From: Xanthomonas bonasiae
GTDB lineage: Bacteria; Pseudomonadota; Gammaproteobacteria; Xanthomonadales; Xanthomonadaceae
NCBI RefSeq assembly: GCF_017163705.1
Contig: NZ_JAFIWB010000004.1
Span: 62,001 to 126,000, forward strand
Length of the DNA stretch: 64,000 nucleotides
Direction: 5' to 3'
The notes under the pieces were generated by a model, which worked only from the letters and a program-made list of their open reading frames with translations, was not told the DNA's origin and searched no databases. Shown here in pieces: positions 53,335-62,724 of the stretch (positions are counted from its first letter, which is position 1; each line of letters starts with the position of its first letter). Both the position numbers and the translations under genes were made by a program.

Positions 53335-54768
53335 ATGAAGCGTGCGATAGGGTTCGCGGCGTTTGTCTGTGTCTTGATCGCGGCGTGTTCGGCCGTGAAT
53401 CCCGGTCCCGGTCCGGGACCGCAACAGGGCAGTGGCGGCGTGCTGCCGACCAAGCCGGGATCCGTGGCCGGCGCCTGCGTGCCGCCCGGGTCGCCGAATT
53501 CGAACTGGTTTCCGCACGCGAACACGCCGGCGCCGGATTCGACGGATTTCGGTTCCGACAGCACCAATTGCGACTTCCACATCTGGTCGTGGAATGCGTT
53601 CCTGTGGCTGACCCAGGACGTGGGCGGCCAGCCGCGCTTCCTGACCATGACCACCGACGGTATCGGCGGTGTCGCCGACGGCGTGCTGGACCCGTTGATC
53701 GGCCGCGCGCAGCAGGCGCGCACCGTGGAACTGATCGATCAGGCCGGGCCGGACGGGGTGTTGGTGGATCGCAACGGACGCGCGGTCTACTACTCGATCC
53801 ACTCCAACGACGTCTTCGGCCAGTTCATCGCCAGCAACGGCCTGCAGGACCCCAAGCGACTGCGCGCATTCAATCCCGACACGGCCTTTCCGGTGGGCAG
53901 CATGACCCTGAAGGCGGCGTGGAAGGTGGTGCAGCCGGGCGAGGACGTCTCGACGTTCTATACCCGCCAGGCGCAGATCGCGAAGCTGGGCATGCGCAAG
54001 GGCAAGATCGTGGCCACCGCCGACACCGAAACCCAGACCGTGGCGCTGGTCGGCTTCCATATCGGCGGCACGGTCAACGGGCATCCGGAAATGATCTGGG
54101 CCACCTTCGAGCACCAGGACAATGCGCCGGACCTGCCGCAGCCGATGGAGAAGATGCAGCCGAACGACATCGTCTCCGCCAGGGATTGGACGTTCTATCA
54201 GGCCAATACCCCGCTGAAGCAGTGCAACGTCAACGCGGCCGGTTCCGGTGCGCTGACCCTGAACGCGCAGACGCAGACCCTGAGCCCGGTCACCCAGGTG
54301 TGCCGCATGGTGCCTTACGGCGGAGAAAAGCCGTGCCCGAGCGGACAGGACTGCAACATCGACAACATCAAGTCGATGAACGCCTCGGTGGATGGCCAGT
54401 TGAACGATGTGTGGAAGAACTACTTCGAGGTCGGCGCGATCTGGTTCAACCAGATGGACGCGCTGCAGCCCAACTGCACCTTCCAGCCCGGCTCGTCGCT
54501 GGAGTGCGTGCCGCCGGACAAATCGCCGCTGCTCACCGGCTCGATGCGGCTGTCCAATTCCACCATCGAGACCTTCACCCAGGTGCAGAGCACGCAGGAC
54601 AACTGCTTCGCCTGCCACAACACCACCCAGGTGATTTCGCCCGATCCGCGCGCGCAGTCGTTGCCGGGGCTGAACGTCAATCTCAGCCATGTGGTGATCA
54701 ACGATTACTTCCAGGCGCAGCTGCCGCAGAAGGCGCCGCCGGCGCCGCGGCCGGCCGCGCAGCGCTGA
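53335..54768 (+). CDS. Mono-haem c-type lipoprotein upstream of the lodAB-like pair
   Basis: A 477-residue exported lipoprotein. The signal MKRAIGFAAFVCVLIAAC ends in a lipobox. A Pro- and Gly-rich linker follows. One haem c motif, CFACH, is at residues 424-428 near the C-terminus (QDNCFACHNTT). Other cysteine pairs may form disulphides. The rest resembles no family I can name; the middle has a long segment with VELIDQAGPDGVLVDRNGRAVYYS and a late IWFNQMDALQPNCTF. It starts after AAGGAG at good spacing. It lies 36 bases before the LodA-like gene, so an electron-transfer or maturation role for that oxidase is plausible, but unproven. Confidence 0.82.
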   Translation: MKRAIGFAAFVCVLIAACSAVNPGPGPGPQQGSGGVLPTKPGSVAGACVPPGSPNSNWFPHANTPAPDSTDFGSDSTNCDFHIWSWNAFLWLTQDVGGQPRFLTMTTDGIGGVADGVLDPLIGRAQQARTVELIDQAGPDGVLVDRNGRAVYYSIHSNDVFGQFIASNGLQDPKRLRAFNPDTAFPVGSMTLKAAWKVVQPGEDVSTFYTRQAQIAKLGMRKGKIVATADTETQTVALVGFHIGGTVNGHPEMIWATFEHQDNAPDLPQPMEKMQPNDIVSARDWTFYQANTPLKQCNVNAAGSGALTLNAQTQTLSPVTQVCRMVPYGGEKPCPSGQDCNIDNIKSMNASVDGQLNDVWKNYFEVGAIWFNQMDALQPNCTFQPGSSLECVPPDKSPLLTGSMRLSNSTIETFTQVQSTQDNCFACHNTTQVISPDPRAQSLPGLNVNLSHVVINDYFQAQLPQKAPPAPRPAAQR

Positions 54769-54804
54769 TGCGCGCCCCCTCATCCGGATCAGGAGCAGAT
54801 CATC

Positions 54805-56913
54805 ATGTCCAGCAACGTGTTTCGAGTGCATCCGGCGATCGGCATCGGCCGCGTCGGCGATAGCCAGGCGTTCTATCTGGCGCCGGTGACCGCGGCCGGC
54901 GTGCGCGGCGCCGACGGTCTGATGGGCGGGTTGCCGGTGCAGCCCGGTACCGAGTCCACGCCGATCACCGCCGAGCAGTTCCGCGATGCCGACGGCAACG
55001 TCAAGCGCCAGGCCGCGCGTTTCCACATCTACGCCTATCCCGGCGGCAGTTCCGGCACGTATCCCAACGGCGGCGGCACGCGCGTGGACGTGGGCAGCAC
55101 GATCGACGGCAAGACGGTGAAGGACATCGTCTGGACCGTGCATGTGGCCAACAAGAAGCTCAACAACTATTCGACGGTGAGCAAGGGCGAGCAGTTTCGT
55201 GGCATCGCCGCGTACGAGTCGCCGGGCCTGTTGCAACTGCGCAATCCGGACTACACCGGTTCGGGCGACCCCGACGATCCGGTGCGCCTGCAGCAGTTGG
55301 TCATCGACCCCGGTCCGCGCGCGATCAGCGTCGCTGCCGGCAGCGCGGCGGCGCTCGGTTTCGATATGCAGACCACTCCCAGCTACGCCGATGCCGCCGG
55401 CACGATCCAGCCGGTGCCGGACTATCCGGTCAGCTTCCCGTTGATGTTCCATACGCTTCACGAGCCGCTGGGCACGCTCGACTCGTTGGGCGACATGCGC
55501 GTGGAAGCCAACGGCGCGTTGATCGTGGCCGGCGGCTTTGCGCGGACCTCGGCGGTCGTGCAGGCCGACGGAAGCTATCCGCCGTTGACGGATGCGACCG
55601 AGAACGGCCTGTGGTACGACGATGCCGCCGACGGCCCGGTCAATGCCGTGCTGATCTTCAGCGACGGCTCCAGCGCCAGCGTGCAGGGCGCCTGGTACGT
55701 CACCGGCGATCCGGGCTACGCGCCGCAGACCCGCAATGTGGTCTCCACCTGGGACGACGTCTACGACGTGTGGGTGCGCGAACTGGGGCTGGTGCCGTCG
55801 CTGTACGCCAACAACGCCTTCGTCGGCACCTACCAGCCGTCCTTCAGCGACGACATCCAGCCGATCTTCCACGCGGCCATGCTGCAGCGCTGGAACACCA
55901 ACCTGCCGTCGGGCGCGATCAGGGGCCACGACATGATCGGGCAGATCCAGCCGACCGACGACCCGACCGCCAAGATCCCCAACCTGAAGACCCTGATCCG
56001 CGATCCCGCCTCCGCGGCCGACACCCAGACCGGCTCGCCGATGATGCCGCTCTCGCTCGGCGATGCGCAGAAGAGCTTCCTCAGCGTCAGCGCGACCCAG
56101 TACTTCCTGCTCAACCAGTGGCATGGCAACAACTACGTGCAAGGCGGCGCACCGACGCTGGGGCCCGGCGAGCTGCTGGACCGGGTCACGCTGCAGAACT
56201 GCCTGGGCGGCCGCTACAGCCCGGGCATCGAGGTGTCGTTCCCGATCCGCGACACCAACCTCTATGTGACGCAATGGCAGCAACAGGATTGCGGGCCGTT
56301 CCGCATCAACCAGGCGTCGCTGGACTACGGCGCCGCGCAGAAGGGCAAGCCGTTCCTGAGCTTCGGCTACGTGCCGCTGCAGTCGTACCCGGTGGAACCA
56401 GGCGATCTGTCCAAGTTCATGTCGGTGCCGTGGCATACCGACTACAACTCCTGCGCCACCCATCTGCCCGATCCCAATCCGGGAGCCGGCAGCAGCAACC
56501 CGAACATCCCCCCGAACAACACCTTGTTCTGGTCGTGGCCGGCGGAGCGGCCCTTCGCGGTCTATCCGGTGGCGTTGTGCCAGGTCGATCCGGAAGACGA
56601 GACATGGTACCCGGGCCCGCAGGTGTATTCCGTGCGCGGCACCGGCACCGACAGCGACTATCCGGCGCAGGTCGGGCGCTTCCAGAACTACGCGGATTTC
56701 GTCGCCAACTGGGCCAAGGTCGGCTTCGTCGTCAGCGGTGCGCAGATCGCGCCGCCGGCGGGGCAGCCGCCGTATCCGGCGGACATGTTCCTGGAGGTCG
56801 CGAGCCAGTTCGACGTGGGCCAGGAATTCGTCGCGCCCTGGCCGATGGCCAACATTCCGGCCTATCCGCCGCCGTCGGCAGCGGTGACCGCCGATGCCGA
56901 TGGTCTCGGCTGA
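54805..56913 (+). CDS. LodA-like CTQ-dependent amine oxidase
   Basis: A 702-residue protein that resembles LodA (lysine epsilon-oxidase) and GoxA (glycine oxidase). The family opening is VFRVHPAIGIGRVGDSQAFY with LAP following. The Cys for the cysteine tryptophylquinone cofactor should be Cys466 (LQNCLGGRYSPGIE). The partner Trp is probably Trp543 in SVPWHTDYNSC; Trp576 and Trp578 (FWSWPAERPF) are alternatives. These residues are inferred from memory of the motif, not from an alignment. There is no signal peptide; LodA itself is secreted without one. Its 3' end overlaps the flavoprotein gene by 20 bases. The substrate amine is unknown. Confidence 0.88.
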   Translation: MSSNVFRVHPAIGIGRVGDSQAFYLAPVTAAGVRGADGLMGGLPVQPGTESTPITAEQFRDADGNVKRQAARFHIYAYPGGSSGTYPNGGGTRVDVGSTIDGKTVKDIVWTVHVANKKLNNYSTVSKGEQFRGIAAYESPGLLQLRNPDYTGSGDPDDPVRLQQLVIDPGPRAISVAAGSAAALGFDMQTTPSYADAAGTIQPVPDYPVSFPLMFHTLHEPLGTLDSLGDMRVEANGALIVAGGFARTSAVVQADGSYPPLTDATENGLWYDDAADGPVNAVLIFSDGSSASVQGAWYVTGDPGYAPQTRNVVSTWDDVYDVWVRELGLVPSLYANNAFVGTYQPSFSDDIQPIFHAAMLQRWNTNLPSGAIRGHDMIGQIQPTDDPTAKIPNLKTLIRDPASAADTQTGSPMMPLSLGDAQKSFLSVSATQYFLLNQWHGNNYVQGGAPTLGPGELLDRVTLQNCLGGRYSPGIEVSFPIRDTNLYVTQWQQQDCGPFRINQASLDYGAAQKGKPFLSFGYVPLQSYPVEPGDLSKFMSVPWHTDYNSCATHLPDPNPGAGSSNPNIPPNNTLFWSWPAERPFAVYPVALCQVDPEDETWYPGPQVYSVRGTGTDSDYPAQVGRFQNYADFVANWAKVGFVVSGAQIAPPAGQPPYPADMFLEVASQFDVGQEFVAPWPMANIPAYPPPSAAVTADADGLG

Positions 56914-58042
56914 GCCGATCGACGCGATGGCCGCGAACGCACGCCATGCCGTGGCGATCGTCGGCGGCGGCGCGGCCGGATGCGCCACCGCACTGGCGCT
57001 GGCCGCGCGCGGTATCGAGGATGTCGTGGTGGTCGACATGGGCCGCGCGCCGGGCTGGCGGCTGGGCGAGGCGCTGGCACCGACGGCCAGCGCGGCGCTG
57101 CAGCGCCTGGGCGTGTGGGATGCGTTCCTGGCGCAGCGGCCGCTGGCGTCGGCCGGCAGTTGCGCCAGTTGGGGCGCGCCGGAACTGGGCTACAACGACT
57201 TCATCGTCGCCGGCCAGGGCAAGGGCTGGCACGTGGATCGCGCCGCCTTCGACGCGATGCTGGCGGCGGCGGTTCCGGCGCGGGGCGGCACGCTGTTGCG
57301 CGGACTGCGCCTGGGCGCGATCGGCCGCGACGCGGACGGCGGCCATGTCCTGGAACTGCATGGCCAGCACGGCGATGCGCGCCGCGTGCGTGCCGGATTC
57401 CTGGTGGATGCCAGCGGCATCGCCGCCGTCGCGGTGCGGCGGCTGGGCGTGGCGCGCAACGAAGTGGACTGCCTGGCGTTCGTCGCCGGCGTCTTCGCGC
57501 TGGAGCGCGCGGACGCGATTCCGTCGCAGGCCTTGCTGGAGGCCTGTCGCGATGGCTGGTGGTACGCGGCGAAGTTGCCGGGTGGGCGCATGATGCTGGC
57601 CCTGGCGCTGGAGCCGCGCCGGCAGCGGCAGTTCCTGGACACGGCGGCGTGGCTGGCGGCGGCGCAGCAGACCCAGCACGTCGCGCGCTGGCTGGCGCAG
57701 GGCGGTGCGACGTTGCCCGATGCCGGCGGCCTGATCGCCGCACTCGGGCCGTCGGCGATCCTCAGCCGCGTGGTCGGCGAGGATTGGCTGGCGGTGGGCG
57801 ACGCGGCCAGCGCCTACGACCCGCTGACCGCGCACGGCATCGTCAAGGCCCTGCAGGACGGCGAGGCGGCGGCGCACGCCCTGGCGGCGCGGCTGCAGGG
57901 CGGCGGCGCGGCACCGCTGGCGGCCTACCAGGACGGGGTGTTCGCACGCTTCCGTGCCTATCTGCGCGAGCGCGGGGCGTTGTACGCGCGCGAGCGGCGT
58001 TGGGCGCAAGCGCCGTTCTGGCAGGCGCGGCTGGCGGCTTGA
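56894..58042 (+). CDS. LodB-like FAD-dependent maturation protein
   Basis: A 382-residue flavoprotein with the FAD motif VAIVGGGAAGCATALALAARG near the N-terminus and the second motif LAVGDAASAYDPLTAHGI late. It resembles LodB/GoxB, which are needed to build the CTQ cofactor in their partner oxidase, and more distantly tryptophan halogenases and geranylgeranyl reductases. No halogenase KWW-type lysine motif stands out. The overlap with the oxidase gene supports a role in its maturation. ATGs at 56900 and 56927 are alternative starts. Confidence 0.85.
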   Translation: MPMVSAEPIDAMAANARHAVAIVGGGAAGCATALALAARGIEDVVVVDMGRAPGWRLGEALAPTASAALQRLGVWDAFLAQRPLASAGSCASWGAPELGYNDFIVAGQGKGWHVDRAAFDAMLAAAVPARGGTLLRGLRLGAIGRDADGGHVLELHGQHGDARRVRAGFLVDASGIAAVAVRRLGVARNEVDCLAFVAGVFALERADAIPSQALLEACRDGWWYAAKLPGGRMMLALALEPRRQRQFLDTAAWLAAAQQTQHVARWLAQGGATLPDAGGLIAALGPSAILSRVVGEDWLAVGDAASAYDPLTAHGIVKALQDGEAAAHALAARLQGGGAAPLAAYQDGVFARFRAYLRERGALYARERRWAQAPFWQARLAA

Positions 58043-60903: not shown

Positions 60904-62724
60904 TCAGTCGTCCTGGTCGTTGTCTTCGGGGGAGATTTCGGCGCGCTGCGCATCCGGCAAGGTCAGGTCCGGCCAGCGCCGCGGCGCCAGTTGCAGCTTG
61001 CCGGCGCGCAGCGCGTCGAACGGCGCATCCGCGCGATCGGGCGAGCTGGGCGAGAAATGCACGCGCGCCACGTCCTGCCAGCGGTCCTGGCGGTGCGCAT
61101 GGATCCGGCATTCCATGCCGAAGTTGTCGGTGTCGTTGCACAGCAGCGCTTCACCGCTACCGTCGCCGTCCAGGTCGCGCACCAGCAGCACGCAGTGGTC
61201 CTCGCGCTGGCGACAGCCGCCGTCATGCAGGGTGCCGGCGAGCACCGCCTGCCACCAGCCATCGCCGGGATCGGCGCTGCCGGCGGCGAGCGGGATGTGC
61301 TGGCGCAGTTCGGCCGGAGCGGCGATGCGCTCCTGCGCGCGCTTCTCGTCGCTGGCGTCGCCGTCGTCGCCCCAGCGCTGCGTGCGCTGCAGGATGCGTT
61401 GCAGCCGTTCGCGCTGCGCCGGGTCCTCGGCGAAGCCGGGCGCATCGCGTAGCGACTGCGCCGCCCGGTAACCGCGGCGGCCGCTGTCGAAGCGCAGGTA
61501 ATACAGATCCACGTCAGCGGCCGCGGTGCGGCCGTCGGCGAAGCGTTGCAGCTGGTCGCCGGCCACGATGCGGTACGGGTCCAGCAGCGGCGAAGCGGTG
61601 GCCAGCGCCAGCGCGATCACCACCCAGGACATGACCCGGTTGACCGGCGCCAGCGGCCGCAGCCAGCGCCCGTCCGGGCGCAGTACCGCCCACGCGTAGC
61701 CGAACGCGTAGCCGCAGGCGACCACCGCCACCAGCACGCCGTTGAAGCGCTCCGCGCTCCAGCCGTACTGGTCGATGCGCAGCCACAGCGCGTACAACGC
61801 CAGCAGCGCGTACAGCGACAGGCTCAGCAGGCCGGCGTCGATCAGCCGCCGCAGCCATTGCGGATAGGGCGCGGTGGCGGCGCCGTCCTGGTAGACGGCA
61901 TTGACGAACACCACCAGCGCCGCCACCAGCGCGATCAGGATCTTGGCCGCGGCGCGGGTTTCCCACAGCGGCTGCAGGCCGGTGAACGGCAGGCTCAGCG
62001 CGAACAGCACCGCCACGAACGCCAGCAACGGCAGCAGCCCGGTGCAGATCGCGAACAGGATCTGCCGCATCACCTGCACCGCGCGCTGCTGGGTGCGGCC
62101 GATCAGCAGGCCCAGGCCGAACATGATGCCGGTGGCGAGATAGACGAACGCGCTCTGGCGGAACAGCTCGCGGAAGAACTCCAGCTTCACCAGCGCGAAC
62201 AGCGCGCCCCACAGCCACAGCACCAGCCAGCAGATGCCGACGAACAGCCAGGCCAGGGCCAGGGTCAGCGCGTTCTGCCAGGCATGTTCGAACAATTCGC
62301 GGTACGGCGCCTGCCAGTGGCCATGCTGCAGCCGGCACTGCAGCCACGGCAGCAGCACGAACATGCCCAGCGCGATGGCCATGCCGAACGGCACCAGCAC
62401 CTTCTCGCTGCGCAGCCCGGGCGCGCCGGTGGCGCTCCACGCGGCCCAGGCCGACAGCGCCGCCACCAGCAAGGCCAGGGCGATCGCGTGCTGCCACAGG
62501 CGCAATTCGCCCAGGCGCCGCACCGACAGCAGGATCAGCGTCGGCACCGTCAGCACCAGGGTGTACCAGCACACCCGGCCGCCCAGCGCCGCGAACGGCC
62601 ACCACCCGGCATCGGCGCCACGCTGGGCCAGGTACAGCAGCGCGCCCTGCAGCAGCGCCACCAGAACGATGAAGGCGCGGGTCTGGCGCGGCAGATCGGG
62701 GGCGGTTTCCATGCGAGACAGCAT
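60904..62724 (-). CDS. DUF4153 membrane protein
   Basis: A 606-residue protein with about twelve hydrophobic helices up to residue 370 or so, then a soluble C-terminal domain of about 200 residues with an acidic DLDGDGSGEAL stretch that could bind calcium. The N-terminal part is typical of DUF4153, whose function is unknown. An ATG at 62712 (METAPDL) is an alternative start. It is first of a possible operon with tag and the secreted protein gene, and divergent from yqgE. Confidence 0.83.
   Translation of the reverse strand: MLSRMETAPDLPRQTRAFIVLVALLQGALLYLAQRGADAGWWPFAALGGRVCWYTLVLTVPTLILLSVRRLGELRLWQHAIALALLVAALSAWAAWSATGAPGLRSEKVLVPFGMAIALGMFVLLPWLQCRLQHGHWQAPYRELFEHAWQNALTLALAWLFVGICWLVLWLWGALFALVKLEFFRELFRQSAFVYLATGIMFGLGLLIGRTQQRAVQVMRQILFAICTGLLPLLAFVAVLFALSLPFTGLQPLWETRAAAKILIALVAALVVFVNAVYQDGAATAPYPQWLRRLIDAGLLSLSLYALLALYALWLRIDQYGWSAERFNGVLVAVVACGYAFGYAWAVLRPDGRWLRPLAPVNRVMSWVVIALALATASPLLDPYRIVAGDQLQRFADGRTAAADVDLYYLRFDSGRRGYRAAQSLRDAPGFAEDPAQRERLQRILQRTQRWGDDGDASDEKRAQERIAAPAELRQHIPLAAGSADPGDGWWQAVLAGTLHDGGCRQREDHCVLLVRDLDGDGSGEALLCNDTDNFGMECRIHAHRQDRWQDVARVHFSPSSPDRADAPFDALRAGKLQLAPRRWPDLTLPDAQRAEISPEDNDQDD

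Follow-up and report, generated by a model that had tools for sequence, protein, structure and literature searches.

A LodAB-like oxidase operon with a third, haem c gene in Xanthomonas bonasiae

On a 64,000-nt stretch of the Xanthomonas bonasiae genome (contig NZ_JAFIWB010000004.1, forward-strand positions 62,001 to 126,000; hereafter the window), a gene pair resembling lodAB, the operon of a cysteine tryptophylquinone (CTQ) oxidase and its flavoprotein, is preceded by a gene whose product, here called HLP, is an exported haem c protein. Does the haem gene belong with the oxidase, and what might its product do there? The initial annotation had read a compact order of haem lipoprotein, LodA-like and LodB-like genes and had proposed a variant quinoprotein system. 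Open reading frames (ORFs) and domains agree with that order, in which a 36-bp gap is followed by a 20-bp overlap, and the LodAB-like pair plus the extra haem c protein, as a conserved unit, does look like such a variant. We interpret the locus as a quinoprotein unit of three genes, in the following computed order.

53335-54768, + strand: exported haem c protein HLP, likely P460/c'-beta-like (ORF; below every Pfam and NCBIfam cut-off; model and fold match; conservation)
54769-54804, + strand: 36-bp gap from the haem gene to lodA, holding an AGGAG-like ribosome-binding sequence (read directly)
54805-56913, + strand: LodA-like oxidase, predicted to carry CTQ, no signal peptide seen; Cys550, Trp578, Asp546 (ORF, Pfam, NCBIfam, alignments)
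56894-58042, + strand: LodB/GoxB-like flavoprotein, predicted cofactor maturase (ORF, Pfam, NCBIfam)

The 20-bp overlap arises if the first ATG of the lodB-like gene is used; an in-frame ATG at 56927 offers an alternative start without overlap. AGGAG-like sequences, read directly, lie ahead of the starts of both HLP and lodA.

Co-inheritance of HLP and LodA

When a genome collection was scanned with the HLP-family alignment and the best 80 of 430 matches were kept (record titles from six bacterial phyla), lodA was nearby in 47 of these loci, directly downstream on the same strand in 46 and divergent in one (L097). Of these 46 same-strand loci, 39 also have a lodB-like gene and seven are cut by contig ends. 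All but one of the 44 nearest loci (L053-L096) were lodA-linked; the exception is L089, whose contig is cut inside HLP. According to record titles, the linked hosts are alpha-, beta- and gammaproteobacteria, Bacteroidota, and one Verrucomicrobia bin. Within the genus, 20 genomes were searched: LodA was present in 13, HLP in 11, and neither in 7, and the window's own genome gave one match to each. All 11 genus HLP matches end 38-42 bases ahead of lodA, counting the stop codon; in the other two LodA genomes a ferritin-like gene occupies that position.

Searches starting from LodA yielded 18 members of the same clade, namely 13 from the genus, those of G048, G037, and G587, and two on plasmid records, one from X. 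sacchari (possibly conspecific with one of the genus genomes) and one from Pseudoalteromonas xiamenensis. Upstream of lodA, HLP was found in 15 of them, a ferritin-like gene in three, and neither in none; on both plasmid records NCBI labels this upstream gene 'hypothetical protein'. Among 18 LodAs outside the clade, HLP was beside none within the stretch fetched, and a match to our own profile of the ferritin-like gene was present at three loci. The taxonomic order of G587 (109 genomes) gave no clade LodA besides G587's own, and G804 gave four weak partial LodA matches.

A maximum-likelihood tree of 79 LodA rows was built by a quick method without bootstrap. In it, 57 HLP-linked rows and the three ferritin-linked rows formed one group with a support of 100 in the Shimodaira-Hasegawa-like approximate likelihood ratio test (SH-aLRT) and a stem of 1.46. 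The 57 rows represent 56 different ones, as L093 and G048's L033, which lie on identical contigs, were both included; LodAs shorter than 560 aa (L059, L064, L066, L095) and cut rows had been dropped. The divergent L097 falls outside the group, and a 71-row tree, likewise without bootstrap, agrees. Since most of the haem-linked rows were drawn from the haem-protein scan, linkage was judged on the LodA-first counts given above. The motif PWHTDYNSC occurs in 57 of the 60 clade rows and in 0 of the 19 others, and pairwise distances over 38 units correlate at 0.886 between HLP and LodA as against 0.783 between LodA and LodB. A tree of the HLP family (87 rows, after removal of 15 named near-copies or cut rows) places 44 of the 46 linked HLPs in one group with a support of 88, a Pseudomonas pair standing apart. 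Chance neighbourhood was ruled out by the gene order at 46 loci, the 11/11 genus genomes, the LodA clade, and the distance correlation. HLP and LodA are co-inherited, and HLP looks like a dedicated partner of one coherent LodA clade; the link is genuine and more widespread than the initial annotation could have known. A CTQ oxidase operon with a third, haem gene in many unrelated bacteria suggests a three-part enzyme system; a search of titles and abstract openings in open-access literature turned up no account of such a gene.

A connection between the clade and an existing classification comes from Oceanospirillum beijerinckii DSM 7166, whose three-gene unit (L063) holds a LodA copy of 692 aa. 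Campillo-Brocal 2015 (PMC4417212) places the LodA-like copies of this strain in groups IB and III and all catalase fusions of LodA-like proteins in group III; with the catalase-fused 973-aa copy in group III, the 692-aa copy would belong to group IB by elimination. According to that paper, no oxidase activity had been reported by 2015 for groups IB, IC, and ID; the words 'cytochrome', 'lipoprotein', and 'upstream' are absent from its main text. Having its own haem partner sets this LodA clade apart as a coherent one and gives a handle on the fate of its peroxide or electrons.

In three clade members (L046, L047, L048), a PF12902 gene replaces HLP upstream of lodA; the family was called by Pfam for L046 and L048 and by a profile built from them for L047. 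We read the position upstream of lodA as an exchangeable metalloprotein slot. VioB, which we take to be a PF12902 member, offers a comparison. It acts after an amino acid oxidase in the violacein pathway, has a described catalase activity with haem b, and finds its best structural template in a ferritin-like protein (PMC9705886); the catalase description fits slot proteins that handle oxidase products, but haem and ferritin-like genes occur together at L055, L103, and L105. Other LodA-like enzymes also have an iron or haem protein joined or adjacent, in the form of catalase-fold or PF14518 fusions and PF12902 neighbours (PMC4417212), but these partners belong to unrelated families, and none was seen to be an exported haem c protein.

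The nearest unit outside the genus is that of the alphaproteobacterium Acidisphaera sp. S103 (L053), with 65% identity for HLP and 71% for LodA. So close an alphaproteobacterial unit suggests horizontal transfer of all three genes together.

The oxidase and its predicted maturase

The LodA-like protein (702 aa) matches Pfam LodA_N at 9e-44 (150.5 bits; cut-off, 26.3) and LodA_C at 1.4e-33 (116.1 bits; cut-off, 25), and scores under the NCBIfam equivalog cut-offs for LodA (218.6 against 600 bits) and GoxA (120 against 750 bits). Its Cys550 aligns with C516 of LodA (3weu/2ymw) and C682 of PlGoxA, and its Asp546 with LodA D512 and PlGoxA D678, by phmmer and profile alignment; Trp578 aligns with LodA W581 and PlGoxA W697 in the profile alignment only (all residue numbers were counted from printed alignments). 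The CTQ of LodA consists of C516 and W581 (PMC4417212), and the numbering of PlGoxA Asp678 is that of PMC7876137. Cys550, Asp546, and Trp578 are invariant across 41 LodA rows, and Cys550 and Trp578 are predicted from these alignments to form CTQ in the window protein. The initial annotation had named Cys466 as the cofactor cysteine and had asked whether the Cys/Trp pair might be missing. Cys466 is another conserved cysteine and was ruled out as the CTQ residue, since LodA C516 aligns with Cys550; absence of the pair was ruled out by the alignment of Cys550 and Trp578 with the LodA pair and by their invariance.

In 45 of the 46 linked loci the first domain motif lies at most 18 residues from the LodA start, i.e., the protein is leaderless; the exception is an ORF on a cut contig, probably with a misassigned start. 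Marinomonas LodA is extracellular and has no classical signal. The LodA gene of one genus relative (L006 of G013) has an in-frame TGA and is possibly a decaying copy or one with a shifted start or end.

For the third protein (382 aa), the two best NCBIfam families are GoxB (1.8e-63, 214.8 bits) and LodB (1.4e-61, 208.6 bits), both under the equivalog cut-offs of 400 bits; it also matches QhpG at 5e-41, below cut-off. From these matches it is predicted to be a LodB/GoxB-like maturase of the oxidase. With the LodAB and GoxAB pairs of Marinomonas and Pseudoalteromonas the window unit shares the Cys, Asp, and Trp of the CTQ site and a flavoprotein maturase gene, here a predicted one, directly downstream; it differs in having HLP, an exported haem c protein, as an added third product and in an oxidase that falls short of both the LodA and GoxA equivalog cut-offs.

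HLP and its likely fold

HLP (477 aa, MKRAIGFAAFVCVLIAAC) has a lipobox (Cys18) and a single CxxCH near the C-terminus (Cys424-Cys427-His428, 'NCFACH'). The CxxCH is kept in 100 of 101 HLP-family rows, one row being gapped there, and K193, H242, W255, and E259 are each present in 101 of 101 (near-copies kept, L093 left out); this conservation points to a working haem. The term lipoprotein, used in the initial annotation, suits the window's HLP and does not describe a conserved trait: a rough pattern detected a lipobox in 16 of the 46 lodA-linked HLPs, and 29 of the remaining 30 have a hydrophobic N-terminal stretch without one, giving 45 of 46 in total (L093 was again left out).

HLP reached the cut-off of no Pfam or NCBIfam family. 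Pfam P460 (PF16694) stayed below it (E 0.012, 16.4 against 27 bits), the HLP-family profile had no match among PDB sequences up to E 1, and phmmer with the single protein gave only two unrelated matches at E ~1. The fold ranking of a predicted model matches P460/c'-beta, and HLP has an FPxG...K motif in which K193 aligns, weakly, with K106 of NsP460. Judging from the model, HLP is likely a large, insert-bearing relative of cytochromes P460/c'-beta, and by analogy the invariant Lys193 would be expected to be cross-linked to the haem. The FPxG...K motif with a lysine at the cross-link position and the C-terminal CxxCH are common to both, and by model rank the fold is probably so as well; HLP, however, is ~3x larger, a long insert separating the core strands from the CxxCH, scores below the Pfam P460 cut-off, and is the genetic partner of a CTQ oxidase. 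It is more interesting than an ordinary cytochrome. The P460/c'-beta superfamily has so far been studied for nitrogen-oxide and gas-binding chemistry (PMC11928373) and would gain a large family whose members are mostly exported.

Quinohaemoprotein amine dehydrogenase (QHNDH, encoded by qhpABC) likewise combines CTQ, haem c, and a flavoprotein monooxygenase. The predicted CTQ pair of the window unit is in a 702-aa LodA-domain protein and not in a small gamma subunit, and there is one haem of another likely fold, in contrast to two haems in the alpha subunit. No recurring extra genes were seen in neighbour clustering, and none of QhpD (radical-SAM), QhpE (protease), or QhpF (exporter) was among the annotated X. 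sacchari neighbours, the window neighbours having been scanned only in part.

Neighbours of distant HLP relatives were sampled by running 20 hand-picked proteins through Pfam, which gives no frequency. GMC oxidoreductases adjoin at L042 and L108, a PF12902 protein is near at L103, and a multicopper oxidase lies some kilobases away at L098. In Bradyrhizobium (L129) a distant relative is near a flavin adenine dinucleotide (FAD) amine oxidase, and in Paracoccus (L105) one is near a PF12902 protein, without lodA. At L044:4638-7232, a weak P460 domain with its own CxxCH is followed by an HLP-type part with a second CxxCH and then by a CVNH domain.

Possible roles of the haem partner

Gene order, the co-inheritance of HLP and LodA, the CTQ residues, the identity of the maturase, and the likely HLP fold with its lysine position are results of computation, and on them we base a tentative scheme. 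The LodB-like flavoprotein would mature the LodA-like oxidase, with CTQ arising from Cys550 and Trp578, and the oxidase would deaminate a substrate, presumably an amine or amino acid, to H2O2, ammonia, and a carbonyl product. HLP, with its haem cross-linked to Lys193, would be the oxidase's dedicated envelope partner, probably in physical contact with it, and its haem may react with the oxidase products, H2O2 first, in a peroxidase-like oxidation or in detoxification. To this scheme as a whole, a CTQ oxidase with a maturase and a P460-type partner whose haem meets the products rather than merely relaying electrons, we assign a probability of roughly 0.4. Characterised P460/c'-beta members bind or oxidise small ligands, with the haem held by the CxxCH His; NeCP-beta gives a ferryl species on reaction with H2O2, and the cross-links of P460 also arise with peroxide (PMC11928373). 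Peroxide release is reported for the lodA-bearing Caulobacter crescentus and Chromobacterium violaceum. It is this peroxide chemistry that makes a haem meeting the oxidase's peroxide our first choice. Against it, peroxidase-like activity is blocked in NeP460 by the cross-link or by Lys70 (PMC11928373). The main gap is the place of the two proteins, HLP being exported and LodA leaderless. A general link between the two families is a different matter. Other distant HLP relatives adjoin unrelated genes, and among 398 genomes sampled evenly from the phylum, LodA_C was in 12, the HLP family in 16, and both in 3, with HLP adjoining lodA only in the window's genome. The initial annotation had taken a family living mostly apart from lodA as an objection, which holds for the wide family (1 of 16 adjoining) and not for the window's subfamily (43 of the 44 nearest loci linked). 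An extension of the scheme to a new three-component quinohaemoprotein class, in which H2O2 from the oxidase would install the haem-Lys cross-link and also act as the haem's oxidant, coupling CTQ and P460 haem, seems improbable to us.

Electrons might instead pass from CTQ through the haem c protein to the respiratory chain, which would make the enzyme a LodA-like quinohaemoprotein dehydrogenase. This is possible, if unlikely. The tight co-inheritance and gene order and the export of HLP would suit it, as would the distant relatives beside GMC oxidoreductases (L042, L108) and an FAD amine oxidase (L129), some members of both enzyme families using cytochrome partners. QHNDH, too, has haem c alongside its CTQ subunit (PMC7876137). 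However, the compartments of HLP and LodA do not clearly match, and the ferritin-like gene that replaces HLP in three clade members is unlike an electron relay. Judged by tryptophylquinone potentials, those of P460/c'-beta-like haems are low for accepting the electrons. Wild-type members range from about -200 to -430 mV (PMC11928373, Table 3), and a low-potential, ligand-binding fold argues for haem chemistry over a simple relay.

A role in maturation, with HLP helping to build CTQ at the early Trp hydroxylation or the final oxidation, would be consistent with the strict link to one LodA clade and with the fact that another metalloprotein can occupy the HLP position. Di-haem MauG provides a precedent for tryptophan tryptophylquinone, and an oxidising role has been proposed for the QHNDH haems (PMC7876137). 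We nevertheless think it doubtful, as the same paper describes LodB or GoxB as making the CTQ of LodA and GoxA once a first, autocatalytic hydroxylation has taken place, HLP is missing beside the LodAs outside the clade (0/18), and HLP has a single haem and is exported, whereas LodA is leaderless. HLP as an anchor that tethers the oxidase at the envelope, or as a sensor of peroxide or nitric oxide, with no catalytic part, is distinctly improbable: a lipobox or other hydrophobic N-terminus is present in 45 of 46 linked HLPs, and gas binding has been proposed for c'-beta proteins (PMC11928373), but the lipobox is not general, and the conserved CxxCH (100/101) and K193, H242, W255, and E259 (101/101) speak for a haem at work.

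A promoter and terminator scan of the locus gave nothing above shuffles. Longest-ORF clustering around the units revealed no further recurring family in linked loci among the 25 widest clusters, with many loci covering <6 kb on a side; one cluster, present at six linked loci, was taken to consist of ORFs antisense to the haem and lodA genes. A YitT-family gene lies upstream of the unit in the window, as it does in X. sacchari R1, where the unit is on a 508-kb record called a plasmid (NZ_CP010410.1, L153). P. xiamenensis has genes for an ABC transporter and an HlyD-type adaptor upstream, on the opposite strand. Two loci have tandem haem genes before lodA (L059:2910-6076 and L099:4049-7209).
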